Source: a virus. Taken from it: a DNA stretch of 21,895 nucleotides. The translations under genes and the position numbers were made by a program. The first letter of the stretch is position 1. The number at the start of each line of letters is the position of its first letter. The notes below the pieces were generated by a model. That model made no database searches, was not told the origin of the DNA, and worked only from the letters and a program-made list of their open reading frames with translations. Below, piece after piece: positions 3,147 to 9,155 of the stretch. The stretch spans positions 1 through 21,895 of IMG/VR virus record IMGVR_UViG_3300049845_000151. One strand, written 5' to 3'.

Positions 3147-3419
3147 GTGTTCTGGGATTCGCCAGAAATGGTGGCTATCATCGAATGTGAATCAGGTTTT
3201 GTTCACTACAAAACGGATGGCACCGTCCTTCAGGGACGCGTGACCCCACGGGACACGGGTGTAGCGCAGATTAACAGAGACTACCATGAGGAGAGTGCGG
3301 AGCGTATGGGGTATGACCTAGACAGTGTCTACGGCAACCTCGGATTCGCCCGGGCGCTATTCGACACGGATGGAAAACAAGCGTGGGTGTGCAGTCGTCA
3401 GGTGGCACTTCAACGCTAA
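3147..3419 (+). CDS. Lysozyme/SLT-like muramidase domain (possibly 3' half of a frameshifted gene)
   Basis: From the only available start, GTG at 3147, it encodes 90 residues. IIECESGF carries the ES motif of SLT-type lytic transglycosylases (Glu15 the likely catalytic acid), followed by DTGVAQINRDYH, which matches the G-x-x-QIN segment of the lysozyme fold, then GNLGFARALFD and AWVCS. That order is characteristic of compact SLT-like domains that I recall from Patescibacteria and their phages. With the GTG start the first helix before ECES is truncated; the same frame is open upstream to 3090 and reads HHLKALVEAVFWDSPEMVA, a plausible helix, but has no start codon. Translation may therefore enter from the 2821 gene by a -1 shift. 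Cleavage of glycan strands during lysis or infection is inferred. Confidence 0.7.
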   Translation: MFWDSPEMVAIIECESGFVHYKTDGTVLQGRVTPRDTGVAQINRDYHEESAERMGYDLDSVYGNLGFARALFDTDGKQAWVCSRQVALQR

Positions 3420-3426
3420 CCCAACG

Positions 3427-3437
3427 TATGGTATAAT
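3427..3437 (+). promoter_or_regulatory. Strong extended -10 promoter
   Basis: TATGGTATAAT has a perfect TATAAT hexamer (3432-3437) with TG extension. The ATG of the next gene is 12 bases beyond the hexamer, so the predicted mRNA leader is only about 4-5 nt and the GGAGG at 3438-3442 would lie upstream of the transcript start. Confidence 0.7.
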
Positions 3438-3448
3438 GGAGGCATTAT

Positions 3449-3634
3449 ATGACAACGTTCCCAAAGGAGTTCGTCAACATTGAGTATGAGGTTCAGGTTC
3501 GTCTTGACCAAGCACTCAAGTCCGGCGACCAAGAAAAGGTCAGGAACTTAATGGACACAATCATTGAAATCCATGCTCAAAGCGAACAACCTGAACGAGG
3601 ACGAAACAAGGGAGAGGAACCCCGAACTGTATGA
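3449..3634 (+). CDS. Small acidic protein of unknown function
   Basis: The product has 61 residues and starts right after a strong promoter. It is helical and charged (NIEYEVQVRLDQALKSGDQ, then KVRNLMDTIIEIHAQSEQ), followed by an Arg/Glu-rich tail (PERGRNKGEEPRTV). The last 62 bases are shared in another frame with the next gene. I recognise no family. Being first in a promoter-led cluster before the SSB-like gene suggests early expression. Confidence 0.55.
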   Translation: MTTFPKEFVNIEYEVQVRLDQALKSGDQEKVRNLMDTIIEIHAQSEQPERGRNKGEEPRTV

Positions 3635-3854: not shown

Positions 3855-4532
3855 ATGGCGATACAATCGCAGAAGCCCACCAAGGAACGAGTTCTCGTTC
3901 CACAGGGCACACACGTTGGGCGCGTGTGGAAGATTATGAACCTCGGGACACGGTTCCAAGAATACAAGGGAGTGCGAAAGGAATACCCCGACACCCTCAT
4001 CAACATCTCATGGGAGCTTCCTAACGAGATGCATGAGTTCACGTTCCGAAAGGAAGACGGAAGTGAGGAAAAGGTAACGAAGCCGATGTCCATCTCACGG
4101 GAGTTCACGCTCTCGATGGGGTCGAAGTCAAACCTCCGACCAATCGTTGAAGGGATAATCGGCACGGCGCTCTCAGACGATGAGGCGTATGGATTCGATG
4201 TTGAAACACTCCTAGGCATGGCATCGCTCGTCACCGTCACCCACCGGATGAACCACGAAGGGAAGGTGTATGCAAACCTCATCTCAACTGCACCGCTTCT
4301 CAAAGGCATGGAAGAGCCAGCAGCAGTGAATGAACCAAAGATACTCGATGTGCGAAAGATGACGAAGGAGGAGATTGATGCGCTCCCTGAGTGGTTGGGA
4401 GATAAGATGCGTGAATCAGACGAATACAAAGTTCGATTTGAGGCTCCGAGGAGTGAGAACCCACAGCGCGTAGCCCTTGACCCTGAACATGAGGCTATCC
4501 GCGACCTCGACCCAGAATCAATTCCTTTCTAG
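3855..4532 (+). CDS. Putative phage single-stranded DNA-binding protein with SSB-like C-terminal tail
   Basis: The ATG at 3855 gives 225 residues; an in-frame ATG at 3798 lies in the leader hairpins and is unlikely to be used. The middle (SREFTLSMGSKSNLRPIVEG, then GFDVETLLGMASLVTVTHR, then YANLISTAPLLKG) matches a family I know from many phages as a putative ssDNA-binding or recombination-associated protein, with the recurring pattern of a K/S-NLR segment, a LLGK-like turn and a YANI-SVSPL-KG strand. The C-terminus is acidic and ends in DLDPESIPF, closely resembling the D-D-D-IPF tip of bacterial SSB that recruits partner proteins. The next gene starts one base after the stop. The role in replication or recombination is inferred. 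Confidence 0.6.
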   Translation: MAIQSQKPTKERVLVPQGTHVGRVWKIMNLGTRFQEYKGVRKEYPDTLINISWELPNEMHEFTFRKEDGSEEKVTKPMSISREFTLSMGSKSNLRPIVEGIIGTALSDDEAYGFDVETLLGMASLVTVTHRMNHEGKVYANLISTAPLLKGMEEPAAVNEPKILDVRKMTKEEIDALPEWLGDKMRESDEYKVRFEAPRSENPQRVALDPEHEAIRDLDPESIPF

Positions 4533-4848: not shown

Positions 4849-4942
4849 GTGAGGTCAGGTACGCGCGAAATACCTCCTCACTAAAAAATCCCCATGACTG
4901 CTGGAAGTTGAAAGACATCCAGTGTGTCACGGGGATTTTTTG
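4849..4942 (+). ncRNA. Two-hairpin RNA or 3' UTR structure
   Basis: Hairpin one is GTGAGG-tc-AGGTA (4849-4861) with TACCT-CCTCAC (4871-4881), loop CGCGCGAAA: 11 pairs with a two-base bulge. Hairpin two is the long terminator starting at 4883. Either a separate small RNA from the -10 at 4839 or a structured operon 3' end. Confidence 0.35.
4883..4942 (+). terminator. Long Rho-independent terminator
   Basis: AAAAATCCCC (about 4884-4893) pairs with GGGGATTTTT (4931-4940); inside, TGAC pairs with GTCA and CTGG with CCAG, separated by small internal loops, giving about 18 pairs. The 3' strand ends in a T-run and the 5' strand begins with an A-run, so it could stop transcription from either side. 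Confidence 0.85.
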
Positions 4943-4961
4943 TTATCCCCAGTTATCCACA
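4943..4961 (+). promoter_or_regulatory. DnaA-box-like 9-mers, copy 2 plus a near copy
   Basis: TTATCCACA at 4953-4961 is an exact DnaA-box consensus. TTATCCCCA at 4943-4951 is a tandem near-copy ten bases upstream. They sit immediately after a terminator and about 40 bases before the -10 of the pseudoknot RNA. Confidence 0.5.
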
Positions 4962-4990
4962 GTTACGGCGTATGTGGTGTCATCACACGA

Positions 4991-5001
4991 TATGGTATTC
5001 T
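4991..5001 (+). promoter_or_regulatory. Extended -10 promoter of the pseudoknot RNA
   Basis: TATGGTATTCT has the hexamer TATTCT at 4996-5001 with a TG extension. The 11-base word TTCTAGTGGTG that overlaps and follows it (4998-5008) recurs exactly at the second RNA unit (8891-8901). Confidence 0.55.
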
Positions 5002-5005
5002 AGTG

Positions 5006-5130
5006 GTGTATGGCATTAAACCAACAACTGAATATTGTCACAGCTAGCCAAGCCAACGGGATGCCATACACATACCTCTTGGCTGGCGTTGACAGTATTC
5101 AAAAGAGGCACGCTTAACGGCGTGTCTTTT
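5006..5130 (+). ncRNA. Candidate pseudoknotted structured RNA, previously unrecognised to me
   Basis: Three long helices are visible. Helix A: GTGTATGGCAT (5006-5016) with ATGCCATACAC (5061-5071), 11 perfect pairs. Helix B: TGAATATTGTCA (5029-5040) with TGACAGTATTCA (5090-5101), 12 pairs with one G-U. Helix C: GCTAGCCAAG (5043-5052) with CTTGGCTGGC (5078-5087), 10 pairs with one G-U. B and C stack across a 2x2 internal loop into a 22-pair hairpin, and the 3' strand of A lies in that hairpin's 25-nt loop, so A and B/C form an H-type pseudoknot. An extended -10 ends about 5 bases before it and a terminator ends it. It has no reading frame of note. Function is unknown; neighbouring DnaA-like boxes raise the possibility of replication control. 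Confidence 0.6.
5103..5130 (+). terminator. Terminator of the pseudoknot RNA
   Basis: Positions 5103-5113 pair with 5120-5130 (11 pairs, two G-U) around loop TTAACG, ending in CTTTT. The core CACGCTTAACGGCGTG (5109-5124) recurs with one extra base as CACGCTATAACGGCGTG at 9110-9126. Confidence 0.8.
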
Positions 5131-5134
5131 CGTG

Positions 5135-5330
5135 TACACACTGGGGGACATGGTGGGCGAACCTATGAGCCACCCCTGGATGCCACTTAAATCATAGGAC
5201 TCATAGACTGATGACGAGGACAGCATTCCTCGACCTATACCGAATAATGAGGTCACTGTATCGTTTCCTAGACCATTGAGCGATACACACACGGCGCACG
5301 GCACAATTGAAATCCGAAAGGAGAGTGACC
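5135..5330 (+). promoter_or_regulatory. Highly structured non-coding stretch, possible mRNA leader
   Basis: No gene is seen, but several helices are. CCTATGA (5162-5168) can pair with TCATAGG (5192-5198), or the shifted CTATGAG with CTCATAG (5201-5207), two mutually exclusive options. CGAGGA/TCCTCG forms a hairpin at 5215-5232. GTATCG (5258-5263) pairs with CGATAC (5281-5286). GGTCACT (5251-5257) pairs perfectly with AGTGACC (5324-5330), which contains a GTG preceded by AAAGGAG, so it could hide a translation start. No promoter is obvious in it. Confidence 0.35.
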
Positions 5331-5405
5331 GTGAACGCACAGTCAGATGGAAAGACACGGTGGAGAGAAAACCACAACAAACGTGTCGAGGATAAAGACA
5401 TCTAA
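5325..5405 (+). CDS. Possible 26-residue small protein
   Basis: A GTG at 5325 (or 5331) follows the good Shine-Dalgarno AAAGGAG and opens a 26-codon frame encoding a polar, basic peptide (TVNAQSDGKTRWRENHNKRV, then EDKDI). The start lies in the 3' strand of a 7-bp helix with 5251-5257. No homologue is recognised; the good ribosome-binding site is the main support. Confidence 0.3.
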   Translation: MTVNAQSDGKTRWRENHNKRVEDKDI

Positions 5406-5467
5406 CCAATGGCTTTTAGCCTCTCTGTACCTACCCGAATAATAGGAAAAGATACATCTGATAAGAC

Positions 5468-5476
5468 TGTGGATAA
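5468..5476 (-). promoter_or_regulatory. DnaA-box-like 9-mer, copy 3
   Basis: TGTGGATAA, exact, lies 38 bases upstream of the -10 hexamer of the 5519 gene. The stretch 5406-5467 before it shows no gene or clear element. Confidence 0.45.
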
Positions 5477-5481
5477 ACATT

Positions 5482-5511
5482 TTGTATGCATAACCAAACG
5501 TATGGTAGAAT
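5482..5511 (+). promoter_or_regulatory. Promoter of the 5519 gene (leaderless)
   Basis: TTGTAT (5482-5487), 18-base spacer, then extended -10 TATGGTAGAAT with hexamer TAGAAT at 5506-5511. The ATG at 5519 lies exactly 7 bases after the hexamer, where transcription should start, so the mRNA is predicted to be leaderless. Confidence 0.65.
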
Positions 5512-5518
5512 ATACGAG

Positions 5519-5776
5519 ATGAAGAAGTTGTCGTTTACAAACCAACTATTTGATACAGATTCCTTACGGGTGAGGAACAATCGAGATGACCTCATTCGAC
5601 AAATCGTGGAAGCAACGAGTGGCGAGGATGCGAAGAAGTTAGCAAAGAGGATTGCTCTTGCAGCTAACACCCTCGGGTGGAGTGATATGGACTTACACGC
5701 ACTTCTCAGGAAACGAGGACAGGTTCGCAACTTCACGGCATTCGTTAAGTGGTCTATAAAAATTAAGAAGAAATAG
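5519..5776 (+). CDS. Small conserved-looking protein, first gene of an accessory operon
   Basis: The product has 85 residues. An earlier in-frame ATG at 5486 lies upstream of the -10 and would not be transcribed, so 5519 is preferred. The sequence contains RDDLIRQIVEATSGEDAKKL, AKRIALAANTLGW and DLHALLRKRGQVRNFTAFVK with a basic end, a pattern I associate from memory with short uncharacterised proteins of Patescibacteria. It looks fully helical with a C-terminal basic patch; nucleic-acid binding is possible. It may be a host-derived gene. Function is unknown. Confidence 0.6.
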   Translation: MKKLSFTNQLFDTDSLRVRNNRDDLIRQIVEATSGEDAKKLAKRIALAANTLGWSDMDLHALLRKRGQVRNFTAFVKWSIKIKKK

Positions 5777-6155: not shown

Positions 6156-6460
6156 ACACCCCCGCAAATGAGTGGCGTGAAGTTGCGAACGAGATAGGAC
6201 TTGCGACATACGGTGGAGTATCGTTTGAAGCCAACCCTGAATACATAGAGAAAATAAGCAAAATTATTAACAACCTCCTCACCACCCACTCCGCTCACCT
6301 TGTAGAGAGGATTGAGAAATTAAAAGTTGCTGAAAAAGATTTCTTTTTAAGAGGAGATTCTAAATCAACATACGAACACGCAGGTAGAAAGTTCTACAAC
6401 CAAGCCCTCGACCAAGCCATAGACATTATCAAGGACAAGAGCGATAAGCAAGAAGTATGA
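6152..6460 (+). CDS. Unknown helical protein
   Basis: The ATG at 6152, overlapping the preceding TGA, gives 102 residues; an upstream in-frame ATG at 6107 is less likely because it lies within the preceding frame. The protein is helical and charged (YIEKISKIINNLLTTHSAHL, AGRKFYNQALDQAIDIIKDK). No motif is recognised. It ends in another ATGA overlap, part of a translationally coupled run from 5778 to 6913. Confidence 0.55.
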   Translation: MNTPANEWREVANEIGLATYGGVSFEANPEYIEKISKIINNLLTTHSAHLVERIEKLKVAEKDFFLRGDSKSTYEHAGRKFYNQALDQAIDIIKDKSDKQEV

Positions 6461-6666
6461 CCCCACACCTAGAAAAAGCACTGGATATGGAACTCACCGC
6501 CGAGTATATACGAGGATTCATAGACGGGCAGAGAGATGAGAGAAAGAAGATTATTAAAGAATTAAATGAAACGTATCTTGATACAACTTCCGGCAAACCT
6601 AACTTCATACAGGGACAAGGTAGATGGCTCAGCGACCTTGACCTTCGCCACAAGGGAACTCGCTGA
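6457..6666 (+). CDS. Unknown small protein
   Basis: The product has 69 residues, starting in an ATGA overlap. EYIRGFIDGQRDERKKIIKE resembles a short helical motif seen in various small phage proteins. The last 101 bases are shared in another frame with the following gene, an unusually long overlap, so the C-terminus of this one or the N-terminus of the next is under double constraint. Function is unknown. Confidence 0.45.
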   Translation: MTPHLEKALDMELTAEYIRGFIDGQRDERKKIIKELNETYLDTTSGKPNFIQGQGRWLSDLDLRHKGTR

Positions 6667-9146: not shown

Positions 9147-9155
9147 TGTGGATAA
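9147..9155 (-). promoter_or_regulatory. DnaA-box-like 9-mer, copy 4
   Basis: TGTGGATAA, exact, lies between the terminator at 9107-9131 and the -35 of the next promoter, 35 bases before the -10 hexamer. Confidence 0.45.

Follow-up and report, generated by a model that had tools for sequence, protein, structure and literature searches.

A pseudoknot at a near-leaderless start codon: a candidate translation-sensitive leader in uncultivated phages

Described leaders and the phage locus

Ribosome-mediated attenuators of the trp and pyrBI type combine a short translated leader with an intrinsic terminator, and the position of the ribosome sets the readthrough. A partly similar arrangement, here termed domain 1, was found on the plus strand at positions 5006-5130 of the window, the whole stretch of 21,895 bases that was analysed. 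The leader frame of domain 1 is likewise short, and its stop codon, ending at 5117, lies in the loop of the hairpin at 5103-5130. The locus appears to differ from the attenuators in that neither a regulatory codon run nor an alternative antiterminator strand was seen, and in that the crossed helix would lock the start codon itself. The leaders of ColIb-P9 repY-repZ and R1 tap-repA reportedly join a short frame to RNA structure, which in ColIb-P9 includes a pseudoknot. Domain 1 shares this combination, and leaders of sister viruses precede replication-initiation genes. In the window, however, the pairing partner of the loop is the 5' end upstream of it and not a downstream site, and the next gene (5519-5776) had no Pfam or PHROG match that would identify it as the adjacent replication-initiation gene of the repY-repZ arrangement. 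The mRNA pseudoknots of the ribosomal proteins S4 and S15 engage the translation start. A pseudoknot at a translation start is also present here, but its fold and size are different, it lacks a ribosomal-protein gene and it gave no Rfam match.

The earlier note on this DNA had not recognised the RNA, and Rfam likewise offered no matching family: Rfam 15 gave no match in the window at the curated threshold, and searches at E values up to 5 returned nothing meaningful in window 4850-5530 or in positions 1600-2200 of the related virus L023. The suggestion of an RNA antitoxin found no support. The tandem pseudoknotted units and the toxin gene of ToxI-type systems were not found near the RNA; the sole repeat in its vicinity, of 10 nt at 4942-4965, falls outside the RNA, and the tested neighbouring genes had no toxin-like Pfam match. 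No description of the crossed-helix leader layout was found in the open papers searched, which cover the literature in part. In kind, domain 1 would work like leader-peptide control.

The IMG/VR record that forms the window carries phage packaging, capsid and tail genes. Among isolate phages only distant terminase relatives were detected (identities of 24-33%, the best among the matches listed), nothing resembled the portal gene, and neither a DNA search nor single-protein searches with the neighbouring genes returned relatives. Related viruses were gathered through the terminase, and the longer records were taken for study. Scans with exact patterns yielded L023 as the sole real find, the rest being chance matches in coding DNA (L029, L030-L045). 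The terminase relative L099 (also represented by L101; 57% identity) carries a homologue of domain 1 at 4147-4245. The terminase is also present in two metagenome-assembled genomes, in whose bins a 16S gene was not detectable. Read with table 11, the terminase match in L013 (8882-10297) contains a single in-frame stop codon.

Crossed pairing and the frame that spans it

Every pairing of the crossed helices claimed in the earlier note was present at its position. Helix A consists of 11 Watson-Crick pairs between 5006-5016 and 5061-5071, or of 12 with a G-T pair at 5017/5060. Its 5' strand (5006-5017) lies at the 5' end of the predicted transcript and its 3' strand (5060-5071) within the loop of hairpin B. 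Hairpin B (arms 5029-5052 and 5078-5101) is formed by 12 and 10 pairs round a 2x2 internal loop, namely 5029-5040 with 5090-5101 and 5043-5052 with 5078-5087. The fold stability corresponds to a z of -5.5, which was matched by none of 200 shuffles. A descriptor of a crossed helix together with a two-part hairpin scored 78.4 in the window; across six shuffles of 413 kb, with both strands searched, the highest score was 58.4. By an estimate of the geometry, the 11 nt that link helix A to the foot of the 22-pair hairpin are about long enough, so some outer pairs of hairpin B may fray.

The earlier note had proposed to look in relatives for compensatory changes affecting both helices, and such changes were found, in a small number of sequences. 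Helix A reads GTGTATGGCAT/ATGCCATACAC in the window and TGAATGACTTC/GAAGTCATTCA in L099, with 11 perfect pairs in both and in identical alignment columns, whereas no more than 5 pairs form between the window 5' strand and the loop of L099. Hairpin B of L099 is nearly identical to that of the window; the letters of the crossed helix differ. Across window, L099 and L023, both sides had changed in 13 of the 34 pairs, six of them in the crossed helix and seven in the hairpin, and 94% of the cells of the alignment pair (98.5% in hairpin B). None of 500 shuffles reached 13 such changes, and slid registers gave 0-3. L023 strongly supports hairpin B but gives weak support to the crossed helix, which taken alone was not significant in that virus (best 6 pairs, p 0.42); in the aligned register seven crossed pairs form, three of them G-U. 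Judged by these comparisons of sequence, the pseudoknot is well supported. The reading of 5006-5130 as a candidate small RNA holds as far as the pseudoknot is concerned, but the conserved RNA runs on beyond 5130.

The extended -10 that had been placed upstream of the RNA is present as TG-G-TATTCT at 4993-5001 (plus strand) and predicts a transcription start at about 5006-5008. An extended or consensus -10 stands at the matching place in L023 (TGCTATACT) and L099 (TATAAT). Upstream of the promoter, a TTATCCACA box with DnaA-box consensus occupies 4953-4961 (plus strand), with TTATCCCCA 10 nt before it. The window holds four exact copies of TTATCCACA (2731-2739, 4953-4961, 5468-5476 and 9147-9155; 0.76 expected), and all of them precede an extended -10 (TGnTAnnnT) by 33-45 nt, one of these being the promoter of domain 1. 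Relatives likewise show a peak of box-to-(-10) spacing, at 30-50 nt, and in seven examined leaders a box-like 9-mer precedes the crossed strand by 47-72 nt; these findings support the reality of the promoter. From their sequence and position the boxes look like marks of a promoter class that is perhaps linked to DnaA, a protein that may bind them. Further upstream, at 4887-4940, a strong hairpin (AAAAAATCCCC..GGGGATTTTTT) closes the upstream gene cluster and is probably a two-way terminator.

The earlier statement that the RNA contains no reading frame proved wrong. A frame of 35 codons (MALNQQLNIVTASQANGMPYTYLLAGVDSIQKRHA) runs from the ATG at 5010 to the TAA ending at 5117 and spans the entire fold. 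Its ATG is aligned and the frame is open in L099 (38 codons) and L023 (37 codons), with all alignment gaps in multiples of 3. The start codon (5010-5012) sits within helix A, at about +3 when counted from the predicted start of transcription. It pairs with a loop CAT in the window and L099; in L023 the aligned columns hold a weaker counterpart with G-U pairs. The ATG follows the predicted transcription start by 2-3 nt in both window and L099 and by about 17 nt in L023, and there was no sign of a Shine-Dalgarno site before the frame in any of the three. Between window and L099, 17 codon changes are nonsynonymous and 4 synonymous, and conservation of the peptide was rejected on these counts; the changes are not biased to third positions, so the peptide is without visible selection. 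The open frame, unlike the peptide, seems to be under selection as far as these sequences tell.

The terminator-like hairpin at 5103-5130 carries the stop codon TAA (5115-5117) in its loop; it has the tail TTTTCGTG, compensatory changes with L023 and a counterpart in L099. Of the terminator that the earlier note placed after the RNA, the hairpin was thus confirmed, but the consensus scanner did not list this plus-strand terminator, which marks the U-tract of the window as modest.

Recurrence in related viruses and a second structured RNA

The layout was searched for in related virus DNA with a -10 placed such that the RNA begins near the crossed strand, reading frames being ignored in the selection. 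Fourteen promoter-anchored crossed-helix hairpins were found in 1.07 Mb of related virus DNA, mostly intergenic and with strong -10s, compared with three weak and apparently intragenic cases in 0.357 Mb of unrelated phages and 0-2 in shuffles. In most promoter-linked cases the crossed 5' strand lies at or near the predicted transcript end. An enrichment of the loose descriptor was not supported (16 hits in 1.105 Mb of relatives vs 5 in 0.357 Mb of unrelated phages); without the promoter condition it occurs about 14 times per Mb in both. An ATG frame runs through the fold in nine of about 13 promoter-linked pseudoknots, as against 2-16% each in shuffles, and is absent from three (L116, L134 and L124, the last lying before a domain 2). 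The frames of sister viruses overlap the start of the next gene in L060 and L024; in L052, L123 and L049 they stop 4-10 nt short of it. Support for the frame, and for the repeated occurrence of the layout, is moderate.

Replication control had been among the suggested functions. Of nine tested downstream genes, six match replication-initiation, DnaD-like loader or primosomal families, which is suggestive only and does not hold for the gene behind the window RNA. A replication-initiation gene stands directly behind the leader in L052 (start 11643, minus strand), L123 (5988), L060 (4551), L135 (11213), L049 (9661, minus strand) and L116 (9811); by eye, the gene starts in L052, L123, L049 and L060 have no clear Shine-Dalgarno site. 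Other downstream genes include an endonuclease VII-like gene and, behind the L024 leader, a portal gene. In L079 a crossed-helix hairpin with 12 perfect pairs (TCCATTTACCTT/AAGGTAAATGGA, 3350-3444) is directly followed by a LOOT RNA (RF03000, 69 bits) at 3469-3594. A few stretches in other related viruses drew attention by eye. Related TTGGGGGA...TTCCCC or CTCCCC sequences occur in L004 (about 900-930), L005 (about 1270) and L015 (about 1010), followed in L004 and L005 by ACCAG, which looks like a tRNA acceptor, and L002 contains a tRNA-like stretch at about 6370-6525. ARAGORN found no tRNA in L002 and L005, and Rfam gave none in L002, L004, L005 and L015.

Behind domain 1 the window carries a second conserved structured RNA, domain 2 (5137-5470, plus strand; 3' end uncertain), which is homologous to stretches of L023 (1865-2150) and L124 (13394-13294, minus strand). 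Identity with L023 is 74% across 171 nt, with a further 26-nt block at 5409-5434, so that conservation extends to about 5434 and perhaps to 5470. The third copy, in L124, was found with an E value of 0.003 by a covariance model built from window and L023 with the L124 copy left out. CTGGnTGCCA, CTGATG and GACAGCATTC are invariant blocks. In a manual alignment, helix P1 (5144-5147 with 5173-5176) is GGGG/CCCC in the window, GAGAGA/TCTCTC in L023 and GCGG/CCGC in L124. It is crossed by P2 (5162-5168 with 5192-5198), which has two compensatory pairs with L023 and forms TGGGTG/CATCCA with a one-base slip in L124. The stem of hairpin P3 (5215-5232) varies, while its loop GACAGCATTC is identical in the three viruses; hairpin P4 (5257-5287, TGTATCG/CGATACA) has a loop CCTAGACnAnTGAnCG in common with L023. 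Short direct repeats also occur in domain 2, ACCGAATAATG at 5239-5249 and CCCGAATAATA at 5434-5444 of the window, and TGTCATG stands twice in L023 (about 1965 and 2144) at similar places, the letters differing between the viruses.

In L124, too, a promoter and a hairpin come immediately before domain 2, and the loop of this hairpin, CGCCAG, is complementary to a CTGGCG upstream of it. Since the downstream genes differ among its viruses, domain 2 looks like an independent RNA. Nor can domain 2 be read as just the 5' untranslated region of gene 5519, since that gene has a separate box-promoter. Domain 2 follows its crossed hairpin as LOOT does in L079, but it does not match the model of LOOT, itself a known but unexplained RNA. 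Domain 2 therefore stands as a separate, unclassified structured RNA common to three viruses.

A translation-sensitive switch and its alternatives

We propose, at somewhat less than an even chance, that domain 1 is a near-leaderless leader whose fold locks the start codon, with readthrough of the terminator set by early ribosome loading; promoter use, termination, leaderless initiation, and readthrough and its control are what we infer. Transcription would begin at the 5' strand of helix A or a few bases from it, and the near-leaderless start would be usable because the start codon at 5010 lies almost at the end of the RNA. Once position 5071 has been transcribed, helix A could form, with the start codon buried in it. 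Hairpin B would then surround the 3' strand of helix A and complete the pseudoknot, followed by the terminator at 5103-5130. In prefix folding of the window and L099 RNAs, helix A was the best structure at lengths of 68-80 nt, before hairpin B can complete, and helix A has no bases in common with hairpin B or the terminator. A ribosome that loads before helix A closes would hold the 5' strand, translate through hairpin B and reach the stop codon inside the terminator loop. With a ribosome upon it the terminator could not form, and the polymerase would continue into domain 2, which would be reached through readthrough only. When no ribosome loads early, an RNA of about 125 nt ending at about 5131 would be released. 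In this scheme the act of translation would count and the peptide would be irrelevant.

The excess of spanning frames, the covariation, the placement of the stop codon in or adjoining the terminator loop, and the lack of conservation of the peptide count for the switch. An E. coli terminator placed a few bases past a stop codon was almost fully repressed by ribosomes, but where a terminator stood no more than 100 bp into a coding region, translation relieved it by about 10% only (PMC4824070). The terminator of the window lies about 100-120 nt from the start, which with so small a relief counts against the switch; it would leak unless the polymerase pauses. The modest U-tract, the three pseudoknots without a frame and the frequency of the loose descriptor count against it as well.

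The small RNA without a frame envisaged at first has kept its fold, but a frame spans that fold, and in sister viruses the layout is usually a gene leader. Domain 1 might still act by itself in trans, as a small RNA of about 125 nt whose binding partner is a protein or a second RNA; the frame would then be incidental. Its own promoter and terminator hairpin, its very stable fold, stem letters conserved past the needs of pairing (CACAGCTA..TGGCG.TGA) and the presence of domain 1 with no recognisable domain 2 in L099 all agree with such a role. We consider it unlikely in view of the conserved aligned ATG, the gaps in multiples of 3, the spanning frames of sister leaders and the genes usually found directly behind the layout. 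Alternatively, both domains could form one structured noncoding RNA of about 460 nt with the 5103-5130 hairpin as an internal stem. Domain 1 is followed by domain 2 in the window, L023 and L124, no promoter was recognised between them, and in L079 the annotated LOOT likewise comes directly behind a crossed hairpin. However, the domain 1 of L124 is unrelated in sequence and has a terminator with a better U-tract, and unrelated sequence follows domain 1 in L099, so that a single RNA seems decidedly improbable.

That the pseudoknot mainly guards the 5' end from decay, or keeps the leader free of ribosomes without any termination switch, agrees with the 5' strand near most predicted transcript ends; it leaves the spanning frames and the stops at terminators and gene starts unexplained, and we give it very little weight. 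Least credible of all, to the point of near dismissal, is an element acting at the level of DNA, its inverted repeats serving as operator sites or part of an origin. The region does lie between the TTATCCACA boxes at 4953 and 5468, but the crossed repeats change their letters jointly between viruses, which is unexpected for a protein site, and reading the two boxes as a replication origin is weakened by the promoter linkage of all four.

More broadly, and with considerable doubt, the translation-sensitive switch may represent a new class of viral leaders, in which a near-leaderless start codon is locked into the loop of a frame-spanned, terminator-like hairpin and which one lineage of uncultivated phages reuses in the timing of replication genes and structured RNAs. 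If this is true, a phage with compact promoters would tie gene expression to the speed of ribosome loading, and the control would take about 125 nt and no regulator protein. The layout, a 5' end paired into the loop of a terminator, is simple and can be searched for in other genomes.
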